A stretch of 64,000 nt of DNA. Source: an archaeon. Lineage in GTDB: Archaea; Thermoproteota; Nitrososphaeria; Nitrososphaerales; Gagatemarchaeaceae. The stretch covers positions 1 to 64,000 of the forward strand of contig CADDZR010000003.1 of assembly GCA_902812495.1 (NCBI GenBank). Reading direction: 5' to 3'. Positions within the stretch are counted from its first letter, which is position 1. The number at the start of each line of letters is the position of its first letter. Shown here piece after piece: positions 16,741 to 25,047 of this stretch. The notes under the pieces are model-generated. The model was not told where the DNA came from and searched no databases. It saw nothing but the letters and a program-made list of their open reading frames with translations. The translations under genes were made by a program, and so were the position numbers.

Positions 16741-16957
16741 AGCTGGAGTTAACAAGCATGACAATTATCCTTCCCACTATGTATATTCCTACCACGAAAC
16801 CTGCTGTTGCAAGGATGCTCTGCATCACAACAGCTGGAATCCCGTATGAAGCAAAGTAAGAACCTGCATAAATTCCAAGGAGCATCAGAGGGGCTATTAT
16901 TGCAGGTGTTGCTACCATCACTATTATTAGATGTTTCTGCTTCTCGTTTATTCGCAT
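16721..16957 (-). CDS. Small membrane protein with two transmembrane helices, 78 aa
   Basis: I choose ATG at 16957 (MRINEKQKH), which overlaps the end of the ribonucleotide reductase gene by 10 bases; a frame extending to 16990 would overlap more and starts in poor context. Two hydrophobic helices are clear at about residues 10-35 and 42-68, with a short polar tail (NSSSKNQAS). No family recognised. It is probably co-transcribed with the reductase. Confidence 0.55.
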   Translation of the reverse strand: MRINEKQKHLIIVMVATPAIIAPLMLLGIYAGSYFASYGIPAVVMQSILATAGFVVGIYIVGRIIVMLVNSSSKNQAS

Positions 16958-19224
16958 TTGCTGTATCCGCAGTTCAGGCACTTGTAACATCCGTTTTCAA
17001 ATATGAGCGTGCTCTCCTTGCATTCCGGACATATTGCCGCGCCTGTACCCTTGATCTGCTCCGATATACCACTTTTTTCTGTTCCACCCGTTGCAAGAAT
17101 TTCCAATGCCTTCGCAACGGCATCTGGAATGGATAGAAGCTGAATACCTTCGTCCCACGCTGCGTACCTTCCTTTTATTCCTTTCAATGTTGAGATCACA
17201 TTCTTGACATCTCCTCCATGTTGCAGGTAGAGGCTTATTAGCCTGCCCAGGGCCTCCGCGTCTGCCTTCTCGTCACCGCCTGACTTTCCGAGTGTAACAA
17301 AGACCTCCTTTAGCTCGCCTTCAATAAAGTTGGCTGTTACGTAAATAGCGCCTTGAGGTAACCTTAGCTTTATCGTCTTTCCTTCCATCACCCTTGGCCT
17401 TTCAAATTGTATCTGTTCGGCCTTCTTTTTTGCAGCCCTTTCCGTCTCAAGTATACCTTCCCTGCTTCCTTCCCTGTAAACTGTTATACCCTTGCAGCCA
17501 AGTTTCCAAGCAAGCATGTATATTTTTTCCACTTCTTCGGGCGTTATATCTTCGGGAAGATTGACCGTGCTAGATATCGCTGTATCGATGTGTTTCTGTA
17601 TAGCTGCCTGCATCTTGACACGCATTTCAGGCTTTATTTGATGCGCTGTTACGAAGTAACTCGGAAGCTGTTTCTCGTCGTTTATCCTGTACATATCCAT
17701 GTACTGCCTTACGAGCGGGTGGAATACCTTAAACTCTCCCTCGCTGAGTGACTTACTTCTTCTTATGTAGGAGAGTGCAAAGACAGGTTCTATGCCACTT
17801 GAACAGCCCGCAAGTATGGATCCAGAACCAACAGGAGGTATTGTTGTGAGAGCTGCATTCCTGAGCCCTAGGTTTCTTATCTTTTCCTTCACCCTGTCAT
17901 CCAGTCTCTGAATGAATGGTTGGGAGAGATGCTTCTCTGCATCGAATGCAGGGAAACTTCCCTTTTCCTTTGCTAACTCTGTCGAATAATCATATATCAC
18001 ATTCTTTATCCTCTCGAAGAGGTTGCCGACAAACTCTATGGTCGCATCCTCATCATACTTCAGTCCGAGCTTTATCAGCATGTCTCCAAGTCCAGTTATA
18101 CCCACGCCTATCCTCCTGCTCCAGAGTGAAGCTTTTCTCTGCTGTGGAAGTGGATGCCTATCCGCATTGTAGTCGAGAACATTGTCGAGGAAGCGTACAG
18201 CGTACTGGCAGGCTGTTGTCAACGCTTCCCAGTCTATACTTGCCCTCTCAGTGAATGGCTCCTTGACAAAGGCGCTCAGGTTAACAGATCCAAGACAGCA
18301 ATTTCCGTAGTTCTCAAGTGTTTGCTCAGAGCAGGGATTGACACCTTCAACCTCCATTCCATTGTATTCTGTAGTAGACTCTTTCTTTATTGTATCCCAG
18401 AAGAGAACGCCTGGTTCGGCCGAAGCCCAAGCACTCTTCACAAGCTGTTTCCAGATATCCCGAGCCTTAACCCTCCTGTAGACCTCTACCCTTTCGTTCT
18501 TGAACCTGAGCGTAAATTCTTCATCGTTCTCAACTGCCCTCATGAACTCATCTGTTATCTTGACAGATATGTTTGCATAGTTGACCTTTGTCAGGTCCCT
18601 TTTTACATTAATGAAATCGAAGATATCAGGATGGTCAACCCTAAGAGTTATCATAAGGGCACCCCTTCTTCCTGCCTGTCCAATTGTACCCGTTGTGGTC
18701 GACAGGAGCTCCATGAAAGAGACAGAGCCCGAACTGTATATTGCCGCGTTGTTCACAGGCGAACCCTTTGGTCTCAGTACGGAGATATCCGTTCCAACAC
18801 CTCCTCCATAGCTGTAGGTCCTTGCAGCTTCTTTGCAGAAGTCAAAGATACCTTCTATCGAGTCCTCCCTTATCTTGAAGAAGTAACAGTTCAAAAGGGT
18901 TGACTTTCTAGGCTGGCCCGCGCCAAAAAGTATTCTCCCTCCAGGTACAAATCTATAGTTTTCCAGAAGCCAGTAAAACTTTTCCTCCCATTCCTTCCTT
19001 TTTGGCTCATCTTTCTCCACCGAAGCTATTTCATGTGCAACCCTTCTCCACATCTCCTGAGGTGTTTTCTCTACTTGCTTTCCTGTAAGGTCCCTTAGGG
19101 CGTATTTCTCATAAAATACCCTTGCCCTCAGCTCATCTCCGTCAAAGGAAAGTAATGTTTCTCGGGGCAGCTCAACTTCGTAACCCCTCCCACTATTTTC
19201 CGAGCTTTCTGTAACCGATGTCAT
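16948..19224 (-). CDS. nrdJ: Class II (adenosylcobalamin-dependent) ribonucleotide reductase
   Basis: The 758-aa enzyme makes deoxyribonucleotides using a B12-derived thiyl radical. Landmarks are C113 in STLLNCYFF, the loop NPCSEQTL with the thiyl cysteine C298, and C309/C310 in the GNCCLGSVNL segment completing the active-site cysteines. The C-terminus is a zinc-ribbon/redox tail (CPEC, then CYKCLNCGYSKCE). The N-terminal ATP-cone of class I enzymes is missing. An AT-rich TATA at about 19250-19260 is 30 bases upstream of ATG, implying a leaderless transcript. An ATP-cone protein is encoded 99 bases upstream. Confidence 0.95.
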   Translation of the reverse strand: MTSVTESSENSGRGYEVELPRETLLSFDGDELRARVFYEKYALRDLTGKQVEKTPQEMWRRVAHEIASVEKDEPKRKEWEEKFYWLLENYRFVPGGRILFGAGQPRKSTLLNCYFFKIREDSIEGIFDFCKEAARTYSYGGGVGTDISVLRPKGSPVNNAAIYSSGSVSFMELLSTTTGTIGQAGRRGALMITLRVDHPDIFDFINVKRDLTKVNYANISVKITDEFMRAVENDEEFTLRFKNERVEVYRRVKARDIWKQLVKSAWASAEPGVLFWDTIKKESTTEYNGMEVEGVNPCSEQTLENYGNCCLGSVNLSAFVKEPFTERASIDWEALTTACQYAVRFLDNVLDYNADRHPLPQQRKASLWSRRIGVGITGLGDMLIKLGLKYDEDATIEFVGNLFERIKNVIYDYSTELAKEKGSFPAFDAEKHLSQPFIQRLDDRVKEKIRNLGLRNAALTTIPPVGSGSILAGCSSGIEPVFALSYIRRSKSLSEGEFKVFHPLVRQYMDMYRINDEKQLPSYFVTAHQIKPEMRVKMQAAIQKHIDTAISSTVNLPEDITPEEVEKIYMLAWKLGCKGITVYREGSREGILETERAAKKKAEQIQFERPRVMEGKTIKLRLPQGAIYVTANFIEGELKEVFVTLGKSGGDEKADAEALGRLISLYLQHGGDVKNVISTLKGIKGRYAAWDEGIQLLSIPDAVAKALEILATGGTEKSGISEQIKGTGAAICPECKESTLIFENGCYKCLNCGYSKCE

Positions 19225-19323
19225 AAACGCACCACACTGCGATTAGGTCAAATATAAAAATGGCTATCGCTCAAAAATTTTAAACCAAAGAAGCTTCAAA
19301 CCATCTAAATTATTTTGACATAG

Positions 19324-21429
19324 TTAGCTTGAGGTTAGATATACACTACTTGCAACAGATCTGCACCTTGGACATCTCTCTTGCTTTTGCAACTTGAAGC
19401 CACAGTTCTTGCAGACGGTTATGTCCTTTGCAATCTTGAGAAACTCAAATTTGGGAGCGAATGTCGAAAGAGCTGCAGAAATTGATTTTGCTTCCTGGCC
19501 CCTAGCATCCAGCGTAGTTGAAACTCCACCAAGCAGAACCAACGATAGCTTCCTTATATATTCAATTGTTTCTGTGTCGTTCGCATTCTGCAGGTTGATC
19601 ATGTTTGTTTGGCTGTAGTTTCCCTCGACACGGGGCTGAACAACCGACTTACCGTACCTCTCCACGTCAAGCTCGTAAAGCCTTGAGGTTCCATGCTGTT
19701 CAACCAATGAGACGAAGAACTTTTCATTTTTGCTTGACTTCTCTCTTGCCTTTTCTGAGGCTGTTTCGGCTATCTTCAGAGCAAGCTCGTATCTTTGCTG
19801 TCCTACTTGCTTTGTAAGGCTGTCCAAAGTCTCGTCTATCCCTACCATATTTATAACAAGAGGCATGTTTTCCGAAGTGAAGGTCTCACTACCTGCCACA
19901 AGTGCAGGCAGCAATCCCCTCTTCAAGTTCCTTTCTATCATCTTTCTCCTAGAGGATAAAGCAGATACAGCTGTAGACATAAGCATCGCAAGTTTTGCCC
20001 TGAAATACGTCTCATCTTGGTTTGATTCGTATGCAAGACGGGGCAGATTCAGACTAAGGTTATGCAAGACGCATATGTTATCTGCCTTGAAATCCCCAGG
20101 CAAAGAAGAGATGCTTATACCCTCGAAGTTATAGATACGGCTTGAAGAGACAAGTGCTACCTTGCCTCCCTCTGCAACAAGAGAGGCAACCCTTCTGTAT
20201 AATGCCTGTTGCTCCTTTTCTCCAGGAGGATGAACAAGAAGCCTAACCCTGGGTTCAGGTGTCTCCTTAACAAAGCTTGAGTACGCATCGAAGGTTGCTT
20301 CGTACACCTTCTCAGCAACATCTCTTGGTATATCATCTCCACCATCTGCTGAAAGCTCTATACTTATCCCTGCCTCATCAAGACCGCGTGCATACATACT
20401 AAGGATCTCAAGCATTCTAAGTATTGCAACCTCTAGCTCCTTTATCGTCTTTGACCTTGCGAAAGCACCTAAATACTGTACAAAGTTTCTTAGAACAACA
20501 TCGTTAGATGCTTCACGTGAAAGGAGTGAAGTGAGAATCACGATCATGTTAAGAGCTCTTTCCGCGTTTTCAGGGCTTGGGACTGAGGGTGCTTCTCTTA
20601 TCCTGCCCCTCATGTTAAAACCTGAACTCTTCAGGCTCAGCAGATCAACATATACCGTGTCAGGTACGAGCCCCCATGTCCCTGCCTTGGATATATGCAT
20701 ATCTCCTGAAAGATGAGCATCTGCTACATCCCTTGGTAGCTGCTCCAGCAAGAGATACTCAGAGAATACAGACCGTCCTGTGTACTGTATGAGCGAATCT
20801 ATACTCCATCCGTCTTCTCCCGCCCTTCCGAGGAGCTGCGTTACATCGTAAACAGGCATTCCAAGTCTAGTTAACTTATGCCTGTATTCCTCGTAATTCT
20901 GCTCGACGAGAACTGAATTGACTATCTCCCTTATGAGTGGTGCAGTAAGGTACTGTGCTTGAAACTTGTAAATCCTCGATTCAGCCTCGCTTGTTATTTT
21001 CTGTGCAAGCTCAACTGGCATTCCTGCTTCCTTGACTAGAGATTGTGTTATCTTGTTTGCATTGAACTCTTCCATTGTCTGACGTGACGTTCTAACATAT
21101 AGTTTGCCGCTTTCTACCTGCGACTGGTCTTCTATTTGCTTTGTTACATTAAGAACCATTCTTCCAAAGTTTGTAACAGTGTACTTCCTCTCCTGCCTGT
21201 TGAGCTGTATGAGCATAACCCTCACGAGCTTTCTTAGGTGATACGCAAACTTCCCAGACTCCTTCTTTGATTTGAAACCTGCAAGTGTCTTAAGTGCGCT
21301 GTACGTTAGAGGTCCTTTTGTGTTCAGTATCCTGAGTATCTCAAGCCTCTGTGGAGACGCAATCACACTATAAATTGACTTGACCCTTCTTGGAGCTGCC
21401 TGCAACTCGGGGCGAAGCCTTGGTGTCAA
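19324..21429 (-). CDS. HTH + ATP-cone + NrdD-like protein lacking radical-enzyme residues
   Basis: The 701-aa product has an ArsR-like winged helix (about residues 15-95), an ATP-cone (about 108-195) and a C-terminal region resembling anaerobic ribonucleotide reductase NrdD: DAHLSGDMHI at 237-246, LNLPRLAYES in the middle and a terminal zinc ribbon CKNC/CPRC. However the usual glycyl-radical ending RVTGYL is replaced by ASSVYLTSS with no glycine, and only five cysteines occur, four of them in the zinc ribbon. I therefore read it as a degenerate, probably regulatory relative, sensing ATP/dATP and binding DNA. It lies upstream of nrdJ on the same strand. Confidence 0.8.
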   Translation of the reverse strand: MTPRLRPELQAAPRRVKSIYSVIASPQRLEILRILNTKGPLTYSALKTLAGFKSKKESGKFAYHLRKLVRVMLIQLNRQERKYTVTNFGRMVLNVTKQIEDQSQVESGKLYVRTSRQTMEEFNANKITQSLVKEAGMPVELAQKITSEAESRIYKFQAQYLTAPLIREIVNSVLVEQNYEEYRHKLTRLGMPVYDVTQLLGRAGEDGWSIDSLIQYTGRSVFSEYLLLEQLPRDVADAHLSGDMHISKAGTWGLVPDTVYVDLLSLKSSGFNMRGRIREAPSVPSPENAERALNMIVILTSLLSREASNDVVLRNFVQYLGAFARSKTIKELEVAILRMLEILSMYARGLDEAGISIELSADGGDDIPRDVAEKVYEATFDAYSSFVKETPEPRVRLLVHPPGEKEQQALYRRVASLVAEGGKVALVSSSRIYNFEGISISSLPGDFKADNICVLHNLSLNLPRLAYESNQDETYFRAKLAMLMSTAVSALSSRRKMIERNLKRGLLPALVAGSETFTSENMPLVINMVGIDETLDSLTKQVGQQRYELALKIAETASEKAREKSSKNEKFFVSLVEQHGTSRLYELDVERYGKSVVQPRVEGNYSQTNMINLQNANDTETIEYIRKLSLVLLGGVSTTLDARGQEAKSISAALSTFAPKFEFLKIAKDITVCKNCGFKLQKQERCPRCRSVASSVYLTSS

Positions 21430-21537
21430 AACTATTTAACATTATGATAATACTTTTTCATACTGAACATAGCTTTAAAACCCAATTGAAGCATCCTAAT
21501 TGAAAAATTATCAATCAAGTTAATCTCAGGGTGTGGT

Positions 21538-24500
21538 ATGGACCCCTTGACAAGAAGAGCAATTTATCTTAATTTGTGCCCTAATTGTGAAGATGAGATA
21601 TATGACGAAGAACTTCTTTCTAAGGGTGTTTGTGAAAAATGTGTTACTGAAAAAGAATACGATCTAATTAACAGACCAGATCCTGTTAGAGATGCTTGGA
21701 GAAAGATGCTTGATCTTCTTAAATCCAAAGGGAAAGAAGGAGAATTTGCAAGGATACTAACTGTTAACCTTGAGCTACACGAGTTTGAGGAGTTTTTTAA
21801 AAAAGCTACAGGACACAGAATGACTAACCTCCAGCAAACATGGGCAAAGAGACTCTTTCTTGGTAAAAGCTTTGCAATAGCCGCGCCTACAGGCTACGGT
21901 AAAACGACTTTCGGACTTATTTATTCCTTGTATCTTGCTACAAAGATGAAGAAAAGCTATGTAATTGTTCCTACGGCTTACTTGGTTTATAACATTGTAT
22001 CTAGGTACAAAAAATACTTGGACACCCTACAAGGTATAACAGCAAGACGTAACATTAGAATAGTATCATATCTCTCATCAATGAACAAAAAGAAAGCTTC
22101 TGAGTCTCTTTCTTTAATAAAGAATCAGAATTTTGATATTTTTGTTTCTACGGACAGGTTCTTGCATAAGAGACTTGACATCTTGAGTCAGGTGAAATTC
22201 AACCTTATCTTTGTAGACGATATTGAATCATTTCTCAAATCACCAAAGAACGCAGAGAGAATTTTAAAGATAATGGGTTTCACTGAATATGAGTTAACTT
22301 ACGCGAGAAAGGATCATTCTGACACAAAGAATAGCGTAAGAAACTTGGAAACAATGATAGTTCTAGCTGGTTCGCTAACGAGGTGGGATAGCCCTGGAGT
22401 AAAGTTATTTAGTTTGCTTCTCGGCTTCGAACCCTCATATTCACCCAGCCTGCTCAGAAATGTTAGGAATTTCTATTTAAGGAGGTTTTCAGAAGAACAG
22501 TTAGCAAAAATTGTGCAGACTCATGGAAAAGGGTGCCTCATTTTCACGCCACATGCCCTTGGGAGGGATTTTGCTATTAAACTTGAAGAGGCTCTGCTTA
22601 GGTATGGTCTTTATGTGAAGGCATATGAAAAACCAGATACATCCGTGCTTGATGAATTTTCTTCGGGAAAGTTGGATGCGCTTATTGGGATTGCAAGCAC
22701 AAGAGGGCCTCTTGCAAAAGGTATAGACCTCCCCGAAGCTGTTAGATATGCTGTGTTTGCTGGTGTCCCGAGGCGTGAAATTTTGCTCGAAAAGGATAGG
22801 AGCTCTGTGAAATTGTTGCTGGTTGTTCTTAAATCGATATTACCTTTACTTGAAGAAGTTGAAAGAAAGCAAGCAAAGACCCTATTTAGAGAATTGTCAG
22901 CAATGCGTGGGGAATTAGCAACAAAAGAGAGCAGAGTATATTCTCTAAAAGAGGAAACGTGGGCATTACTCAAAAGAATTTGTTTAAAGGATGGTAAAAA
23001 GTTTCATGAAATTGGAATAAGCCTACAGATTGAACCGGATGGCGCGGATAGGATTAAACTAGTCATTCCAGATGTGTCGGGTTACATACAGGCCTCCGGA
23101 AGAACTTCTAGGCTTTTCGCAAACGGACTAACTAGAGGAGTTTCAATACTTTTGATAGACGATGAAGATTCTTTCAAAGGATTAGAAAAAAGGTTGGCAA
23201 TTGTCGCAGACGAAAGTTTCGAGGAGTATGATTTAGCGATCGTAAATAAGGAATTCACGGTAATTGATAAAGACAGAAGTATTCTCAAGCAAATGAAGTA
23301 TGCTGAACAAGACCAAACACACGAAATCCCTTTCAAGACATCTCTTATCGTGGTAGAGTCCCCTGCAAAAGCAAAAACAATAGCCGGATTTTTTGGAAAG
23401 CCTTCAAAGAGAAATAATGAGGGAATCATAGCTTATGAAATCCCCTCTGGCGAGAGGTTACTATGCATCACCGCAAGTCAGGGGCATATATTTGACTTGA
23501 CAACAAAAAGAGGATTCCATGGCGTTGAAAAGGAAGATGGTGTCTTTGTTCCAATTTATACAGATATTAGGAGGTGTGTGTCCTGTAAAAACCAATTTAC
23601 AGATTCTGAGATTTGTCCTGTTTGCAAATCAAACAATATTTTTTCAAAAATCAGAATAGCAAGAGCACTTGGTATACTCGCATTTGAGACGAATGAGGTT
23701 CTAATAGCAACAGACCCAGACAGTGAGGGAGAGAAGATAGCCTATGACATACTGTGTTGTGTATATCCATTCAACAAGACTGTAAGGAGGTTAGAATTTC
23801 ACGAAGTAACGAAAAGAGCATTTCTCAAATCATTGCATGAACAAAGGGAAATCGACATAAGAAAAGTGGAGGCTCAGATGGTCCGAAGGATTGAAGACAG
23901 ATGGATAGGCTTTGAACTGAGTCATAAACTTTGGCAAAAGTTTGGAAAGAATACACTTTCGACAGGGAGAGTTCAGACACCAGTATTAGGATGGGTCGTA
24001 AAGAGAACGGACGAACTAAAGAAGAAAAGAAAAGTTATTCTTGTAAAACTCGAAAACGGATTACTTCTGAGATTCTGGGATACAGAAATAACCAAGTCTG
24101 AACCTTTGGAAGCAGTAATCTCCTCCTCCGAGTTAATTACCGAAACAGTTAGTCCTCCACCTCCATTTACAACAGACACACTTCTCAGCGCACTTTCTCG
24201 GATGGGAATGAATGTTATACGTGTCATGGAACTCGCTCAAGACCTGTTTGAGCTTGGCCTAATAACATACCATAGAACTGATTCTACAAGAGTCTCCGAT
24301 TCTGGTTTAGCTGTTGCAAAACAGTACCTTGAGGGAAAGTCGCTTGAGTTTAAAGAAAGGAGGTATGAAAGTAAAGGTGCTCATGAGTGTATAAGACCAA
24401 CGCGACCTATTGACTCCTCAGAACTTTTCTTCTACTTGCAAGATAGATATCCGGAAGGACAAAAAACAAGGATAAAAAAGGAACATATCTTCCTTTACGA

Positions 24501-25047
24501 CACAATATTTAGAAGGTTCATTGCGAGCCAGATGAAGGAAGCATTGGTAGAATCCCAGGAGTATTCTGTAAAATTAGGCACCTTAGAGACAAAGCTCAAA
24601 AGAATTATTAAAATAAAAGAGCATGGGTTTCTTGTGTATCTTCCTCTTCTTAAACAGGAACCTCCAATTGTTCCAGGACATTACAGAGTCGTGGAGACAA
24701 AGTCAATGTTGGTTCCTTCATCCTCTCCCTATACACAGCATGAAATAATATCGCTAATGAAAGAAAGGGGGATTGGGAGACCTAGCACATACGCTAAAAT
24801 TATTGATACTTTATTTGCTAGAAAATATATCAAACAGCGAGGAAAGGCAATAATAGCGACCAAACTTGGCAAGGAAGTTTATGAGTACCTTGAGTCAAAT
24901 TTTGAAAAGATGATATCAGAAGCGACTACTAGAGAACTTGAAAAAAGGATGGACCTTGTAGAGAGAGGTGAAAGGAATTATCAGGACGTGCTGCAATATG
25001 TTTACTCAGAAATTAATGACATCTTAAAACAGAGCACATCTTATTAA
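21538..25047 (+). CDS. rgy: Reverse gyrase
   Basis: The 1169-aa protein fuses a helicase to a type IA topoisomerase and introduces positive supercoils; it is the hallmark enzyme of hyperthermophiles. In order: N-terminal zinc finger (CPNC at 14-17, CEKC at 32-35), Walker A APTGYGKTT at 115-123, DDIE box near 226, the Toprim start VVESPAKAKTIAGFFGKP near 604, a second zinc finger CVSC/CPVC near 680, and the catalytic tyrosine in LITYHRTDSTR at about 911. No intein, no split. By eye it is more A+T-rich than the reductase genes beside it. ATG is preceded by AGGGTGTGGT. Confidence 0.97.
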   Translation: MDPLTRRAIYLNLCPNCEDEIYDEELLSKGVCEKCVTEKEYDLINRPDPVRDAWRKMLDLLKSKGKEGEFARILTVNLELHEFEEFFKKATGHRMTNLQQTWAKRLFLGKSFAIAAPTGYGKTTFGLIYSLYLATKMKKSYVIVPTAYLVYNIVSRYKKYLDTLQGITARRNIRIVSYLSSMNKKKASESLSLIKNQNFDIFVSTDRFLHKRLDILSQVKFNLIFVDDIESFLKSPKNAERILKIMGFTEYELTYARKDHSDTKNSVRNLETMIVLAGSLTRWDSPGVKLFSLLLGFEPSYSPSLLRNVRNFYLRRFSEEQLAKIVQTHGKGCLIFTPHALGRDFAIKLEEALLRYGLYVKAYEKPDTSVLDEFSSGKLDALIGIASTRGPLAKGIDLPEAVRYAVFAGVPRREILLEKDRSSVKLLLVVLKSILPLLEEVERKQAKTLFRELSAMRGELATKESRVYSLKEETWALLKRICLKDGKKFHEIGISLQIEPDGADRIKLVIPDVSGYIQASGRTSRLFANGLTRGVSILLIDDEDSFKGLEKRLAIVADESFEEYDLAIVNKEFTVIDKDRSILKQMKYAEQDQTHEIPFKTSLIVVESPAKAKTIAGFFGKPSKRNNEGIIAYEIPSGERLLCITASQGHIFDLTTKRGFHGVEKEDGVFVPIYTDIRRCVSCKNQFTDSEICPVCKSNNIFSKIRIARALGILAFETNEVLIATDPDSEGEKIAYDILCCVYPFNKTVRRLEFHEVTKRAFLKSLHEQREIDIRKVEAQMVRRIEDRWIGFELSHKLWQKFGKNTLSTGRVQTPVLGWVVKRTDELKKKRKVILVKLENGLLLRFWDTEITKSEPLEAVISSSELITETVSPPPPFTTDTLLSALSRMGMNVIRVMELAQDLFELGLITYHRTDSTRVSDSGLAVAKQYLEGKSLEFKERRYESKGAHECIRPTRPIDSSELFFYLQDRYPEGQKTRIKKEHIFLYDTIFRRFIASQMKEALVESQEYSVKLGTLETKLKRIIKIKEHGFLVYLPLLKQEPPIVPGHYRVVETKSMLVPSSSPYTQHEIISLMKERGIGRPSTYAKIIDTLFARKYIKQRGKAIIATKLGKEVYEYLESNFEKMISEATTRELEKRMDLVERGERNYQDVLQYVYSEINDILKQSTSY

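Follow-up and report, generated by a model that had tools for sequence, protein, structure and literature searches.

What does a protein do that combines the body of the anaerobic ribonucleotide reductase (RNR) NrdD with an N-terminal winged helix? The question is raised by a gene in a 64,000-nucleotide stretch of archaeal DNA (the window, by which we mean the whole stretch that was analyzed). A preliminary description had read this gene as a repurposed reductase that acts, like NrdR, as a nucleotide-sensing transcription regulator of RNR genes. Features of the locus are listed in Table 1.

Table 1. Positions of the regulator gene, its domains, the neighboring reductase gene and the putative promoter elements within the window
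Feature	Position	Strand	Basis
nrdJ, class II (B12-dependent) RNR, 758 aa, no ATP-cone; presumed target	16948..19224	-	Profile matches
TATA-like TTTATAT of nrdJ, 27 nt from ATG (putative)	19252..19258	-	Read from sequence
Weak copy of the candidate operator in the regulator-nrdJ gap, GTCAAAATAATTTAGA, 2 mismatches to GTCAA-N6-TTnAC	19304..19319		
Pseudo-NrdD regulator gene (winged helix, ATP-cone, inactive NrdD body, Zn ribbon)	19324..21405	-	Predicted start
C-terminal four-Cys zinc ribbon (C673, C676, C686, C689)	19363..19413	-	Invariant in 55/55
NrdD-like body, about residues 191-660, without betaA Cys and finger-loop Cys	19450..20859	-	Pfam, alignment, fold match
ATP-cone, residues 111-182	20884..21099	-	Pfam; whole-genome match at the same place
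Winged helix, residues 18-94 (Pfam DUF7347)	21148..21378	-	Pfam and conservation
Candidate operator upstream of regulator, GTTAAATAGTTTTGAC on the - strand (GTnAA-N6-TTGAC)	21425..21440		Pattern search
TATA-like TTAAATA inside candidate operator (putative)	21432..21438	-	Read from sequence

The longest open reading frame for the protein runs over 19324-21429 on the minus strand (701 codons), as described before, but translation probably starts at the TTG at 21405 (MQAAPRRV...) rather than at 21429, because relatives begin with MQxAxRRV in a conserved TTGCAGGC(A/G)GC context and the TTG of the window lies in the context GAGTTGCAGGCAGCTCC. Pfam recognized the winged helix as DUF7347 (PF24038; residues 18-94, 37.9 bits against a gathering score of 27.6) and an ATP-cone behind it (PF03477; 35.6 bits against 25.8), and the body matched the Pfam NRDD model with an E value of 5e-30. 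Under the NCBI equivalog model for NrdD, TIGR02487, the protein scored only 89.5 bits against a cutoff of 326.35. An NrdD-like protein with a winged helix, an ATP-cone and a terminal zinc ribbon, as first proposed, is thus borne out by Pfam and by the ribbon cysteines, and the two NrdD-like segments quoted at the time, DAHLSGDMHI and LNLPRLAYES, are both found in the frame. Structure prediction likewise returned an NrdD fold: an AlphaFold model made from 55 homologues (pLDDT, 89.1; pTM, 0.79) had its best PDB matches among the NrdDs of Thermotoga maritima, Streptococcus thermophilus, Prevotella copri and T4 (crystal and cryo-electron microscopy structures), with a Foldseek E value of 1e-20 against 4col.

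Conservation is uneven along the chain. Across 17 diverse sequences, the mean majority-residue fraction was 0.84 in the winged helix, where 31 of 80 positions are invariant, and 0.81 in the ATP-cone, versus 0.41 to 0.56 in the barrel; within the winged helix, GFKSKKESGKFAYHLRKL is invariant across 17 Nitrososphaerota sequences. Such a peak in these two domains would be expected under selection for DNA binding and nucleotide sensing. The phosphate-binding hairpin of the ATP-cone has R-T (VRTS) in place of the usual K-R, a replacement shared by at least one real NrdD from the phylum of the Nitrososphaerota. When aligned by eye, R113-T114 lies opposite K50/R51 of Streptomyces coelicolor NrdR; R113 is invariant in 55 sequences, and the second residue is nonbasic. 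We also considered a decaying pseudogene and rejected it, since full length and key motifs are retained throughout the phylum.

We aligned 59 family representatives and, for comparison, 15 bona fide NrdDs of this phylum. All 15 NrdDs have the betaA cysteine, both finger-loop cysteines and the radical glycine. Among the family members, the betaA cysteine is present in 0 of 59, the first finger-loop cysteine in 0 of 59 (with glycine in its place in 56) and the second in 1, and the radical glycine is lost in 57; the two that keep it (L172 and L179) come from the lineages closest to NrdD in the tree. The finger-loop cysteine motif of NrdD is MGCR or MCCR (PMC9669993). One relative (L171:5831-8179) keeps a GCR finger-loop motif and has lost the betaA cysteine and the radical glycine, and may be an intermediate of decay. 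The window protein ends with ASSVYLTSS right after the ribbon, whereas real NrdDs run on with SRxxGY, and in Nitrososphaerota members generally the chain stops just past the ribbon, before the glycyl-radical loop. The window protein has five cysteines, as counted before, namely C454 and the ribbon quartet. The absence of the radical glycine and active-site cysteines claimed in the preliminary description therefore stands up to alignment with real NrdDs. Judged by alignment and model, the protein, which we call pseudo-NrdD, has the NrdD fold and is predicted to be incapable of known RNR chemistry.

Within the order, 38 of 41 genomes contain a relative of the regulator, and a profile search was positive in 243 of 299 genomes of the phylum, although the weakest of these matches (E value, 1e-4) may be to the winged helix or ATP-cone only. 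Named records with a family member are all Nitrososphaerota/Thaumarchaeota or archaeal metagenome-assembled genomes (MAGs), one MAG being titled "bacterium"; named genera include Nitrosopumilus, Nitrosotalea, Nitrosotenuis and Nitrososphaera. Relatives also occur in other classes of the phylum, beyond Nitrososphaerota, and these more distant genomes are probably Bathyarchaeia. In a tree of the ATP-cone and body, 35 of 35 family members were split from 16 of 16 NrdDs on one branch (SH-aLRT, 100). As the tree is unrooted, its topology is compatible with a single origin of the family and falls short of proving one. A viral or phage origin was rejected, with zero relatives among 50,697 phage records and in IMG/VR.

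The genomic neighborhood ties the gene to RNR. In Nitrososphaerota, nrdJ follows directly in the same orientation in all 19 long loci (L033 to L051) and in 75 of 80 named loci, the remaining five ending within about 400 bp; synteny with nrdJ is thus nearly invariant there. In other classes, the downstream gene encodes NrdD in L166, L167, L171 and L177 (with a glutaredoxin gene in between in L166 and L171) and NrdJ in L170, and some relatives stand alone without any RNR gene nearby. Next to the stand-alone relatives there is often a convergent carbamoyltransferase gene, which likewise flanks loci of the NrdD type. Twenty other-class genomes searched for both reductases contained NrdD only, NrdJ only or both. 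Because the neighbor may be NrdD or NrdJ, gene order indicates that the partner of the regulator is RNR in general rather than one class. No NrdR (TIGR00244) scored above the cutoff in 41 genomes, comprising that of the window and 40 relatives; the same search was positive in 9 of 14 control genomes.

The preliminary description had also placed the gene upstream of an nrdJ without an ATP-cone, from which one could argue that the regulator makes up for this lack. The adjacent NrdJ indeed has no cone, but the genome has a second NrdJ outside the window (L196:1-2706, on G000:C33) with two ATP-cone stretches. Compensation for a coneless NrdJ fails as a general rule and was rejected, since in several relatives (L036, L033 and L038) the adjacent NrdJ carries a cone of its own, as does the second NrdJ of the window's genome. 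The 5' end of this second gene is cut by the contig end. Two NrdJ genes of relatives (L041 and L109) have large insertions bearing intein splicing and LAGLIDADG domains.

A candidate operator emerged from the gaps between regulator and RNR genes, in which the top 6-mer relative to shuffles was TGTCAA (26 of 44 gaps, with 8.3 expected). The longer pattern GTCAA-N6-TTnAC occurs 16 times in the 11.4 kb of gap sequence; with spacers of 2 to 11 other than 6, the count was 0 or 1. Counted over nonredundant loci and in both orientations, the pattern reached a density of 1.08/kb in the gap; the 300 bp preceding the regulator gene had 0.52/kb, and the density elsewhere was about 0.016/kb. Over whole genomes the element was no commoner overall than a reversed control. 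Among 22 genomes of the window's family, 19 contain the exact element in either of two positions, against an expectation of 0.04 (a nominal figure that does not give a true P value, since the pattern was picked after the gaps had been viewed and the genomes are related). The exact element lies just upstream of the gene in 13 of these genomes and just past its stop codon in 14. From these sequence comparisons, the placement of the element appears hard to explain otherwise.

In the window, the copy upstream of the regulator encloses a TATA-like motif 27 nt from the TTG start, a distance that would suit a leaderless archaeal transcript. Relatives carry GTTAAATACTTTTGAC at the own-promoter place, and their proteins are only about 60% identical. 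The copy on the nrdJ side is weak in the window, and relatives have exact copies there. The window's genome contains seven copies of the element, six of them within open reading frames and only the one at 21425-21440 outside. A larger regulon was considered and rejected: perfect copies elsewhere in relatives precede no common gene, and the six other copies in the window's own genome are inside open reading frames. In part of the Nitrosopumilaceae, the gap is without GTCAA-N6-TTnAC and has a different conserved block instead; the site may have drifted along with the protein in this group.

Several further observations concern the site and its surroundings. In the Nitrosopumilaceae L135, L139, L150, L157 and L160, a conserved palindrome, TATGAAnTTCATA, with CGGTGT(N)AA after it, takes the place of the element upstream of nrdJ. 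In L004, L005, L008, L010, L012, L017 and others, a second box, CGTCTCATG, lies about 9 to 10 bases past GTCAA-N6-TTnAC in the nrdJ gap; the spacing is nearly fixed, and the footprint may be compound. A perfect GTCAA-N6-TTGAC also marks the 5' end of the gene for a 521-amino-acid DUF7347 winged-helix protein (L207:953-2518, G005). This hints that winged helices of the DUF7347 type read GTCAA half-sites. A genome of the same order that is 99% complete (L197, G030) has nrdJ and lacks both the regulator and any element nearby, and presents a case of natural loss. In the window, a reverse gyrase gene (21538-25047, plus strand; 1135 bits to TIGR01054) is divergent from the regulator, and the candidate operator lies within the short intergenic region common to the two and could also touch reverse gyrase.

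These data are consistent with a transcription regulator of RNR genes that senses nucleotides, controls its own gene, has an NrdR-like role and was made from a whole dead class III enzyme, a reading that we consider likely. An NrdD would have been duplicated, its ATP-cone, fold and zinc ribbon being kept, its radical glycine and catalytic cysteines lost and a winged helix carried at the N terminus. The regulator would bind the two half-sites of GTnAA-N6-TTGAC, most likely as a dimer. The site over its own TATA box would then serve autoregulation, and through the site between the regulator and the downstream RNR gene it would control nrdJ or, in some lineages, nrdD. Levels of ATP/dATP or deoxynucleoside triphosphates (dNTPs) would be sensed by the ATP-cone, perhaps together with the former specificity pocket, and, by analogy with the ATP-cone in NrdR and NrdD, translated into a changed oligomeric state and DNA affinity. 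The ATP-cone of NrdR governs how that protein oligomerizes and binds DNA (PMC9110341), and in NrdD the cones shift on ATP/dATP (PMC11226230). Bound at its own promoter, the regulator would cover the TATA box, and the likeliest outcome is repression; at nrdJ, where the sites lie upstream of the TATA box, binding could act in either direction. Some features weigh against this reading: the R-T hairpin of the ATP-cone, the two mismatches in the window's nrdJ-side site, the deviating gap block of several Nitrosopumilaceae, and the other-class relatives that lie apart from RNR genes. The regulatory role proposed in the preliminary description thus draws support from synteny with RNR genes, an element at both promoters, the lack of NrdR and the conservation of winged helix and ATP-cone, from which we infer the function.

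Could the protein act on the reductase itself? The dead NrdD body and ATP-cone might attach to NrdJ or NrdD and tune that enzyme's activity, with DNA binding just placing the protein or autoregulating its gene; the fold of an RNR subunit, the position beside RNR genes of either class and the coneless NrdJ of the window would suit such an allosteric partner. We regard this as unlikely, because conservation peaks in the winged helix, the element occurs at the RNR gene as well as at the gene's own promoter, the regulator is retained in relatives whose NrdJ bears its own ATP-cone, and control by contact would demand that a single scaffold suit two RNR classes that differ greatly. There is also a slim chance that the element belongs to another transcription factor and that pseudo-NrdD does something else with DNA, for which the differing element in part of the Nitrosopumilaceae could be cited. 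The element is, however, confined to the two promoters flanking this winged-helix gene, its other copies lying within open reading frames in the window's genome and before no shared gene in relatives, a pattern usual for a local autoregulator. A functional reductase that uses unusual chemistry or a partner supplying the missing residues is hardly credible despite the NrdD fold, the conserved zinc ribbon and the NLPR segment, since the betaA cysteine, finger-loop cysteines and glycine loop are gone in practically all members and kept in the real NrdDs of the phylum, a working NrdJ adjoins, and the searches made in genomes carrying the gene turned up an NrdJ or NrdD.

We found no earlier description of such a protein in the open-access literature, where we met only reviews and structures of NrdR and NrdD. 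Pseudo-NrdD fits neither NrdD, by its catalytic residues, nor NrdR, by model and architecture, and there is a good chance that it represents a nucleotide-sensing RNR regulator built on a scaffold unrelated to NrdR, namely an entire dead reductase. Nearly all Nitrososphaerota examined have the gene, and Nitrososphaerota are among the most abundant archaea on Earth. Because all 55 scanned members match NrdD models, annotation pipelines risk labeling pseudo-NrdD an anaerobic reductase, a label that would falsely imply a class III RNR in aerobic ammonia oxidizers. The finding bears on how archaea without NrdR adjust deoxyribonucleotide synthesis and offers a testable candidate regulator with a defined DNA site. 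More broadly, we lean toward the view that pseudo-NrdD is a dedicated, lineage-wide factor that reads dNTP status through its original allosteric sites and acts on the promoters of whichever RNR class is present, replacing the absent NrdR across ammonia-oxidizing archaea and their relatives. If the regulator reading is true, the protein is a clear example of an enzyme scaffold that came to serve as a transcription factor in the pathway from which it derives.

Among known systems, the closest in presumed role is NrdR (TIGR00244), which also joins an ATP-cone to a DNA-binding part, although here the DNA binder is presumed. NrdR controls RNR genes of any class and often its own gene (PMC9110341), and its DNA boxes, like the pseudo-NrdD element, lie upstream of RNR genes and often of its own gene; the element is of a different sequence type, and its binding by pseudo-NrdD is predicted. 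NrdR has about 150 amino acids and binds DNA through an N-terminal zinc ribbon, whereas pseudo-NrdD has a winged helix as presumed DNA binder, a whole NrdD body and the C-terminal ribbon of NrdD. TIGR00244, which describes an N-terminal zinc ribbon with an ATP-cone, gave no match to it above the cutoff, and the order of parts differs. With NrdD (PF13597 and TIGR02487), pseudo-NrdD is homologous over the ATP-cone, the barrel and the C-terminal ribbon; it differs in having no radical glycine loop, betaA cysteine or finger-loop cysteines and in its extra N-terminal winged helix, and it scores far under the equivalog cutoff. The winged helix is shared with DUF7347 and ArsR-like archaeal regulators (PF24038 and PF12840), of which, to our knowledge, none has been described as fused to an ATP-cone and an NrdD body. 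Finally, NrdA, NrdJ and class I NrdB variants that bear an ATP-cone use it as an activity switch and are parts of an active enzyme, whereas pseudo-NrdD is an inactive chain with a DNA-binding domain.
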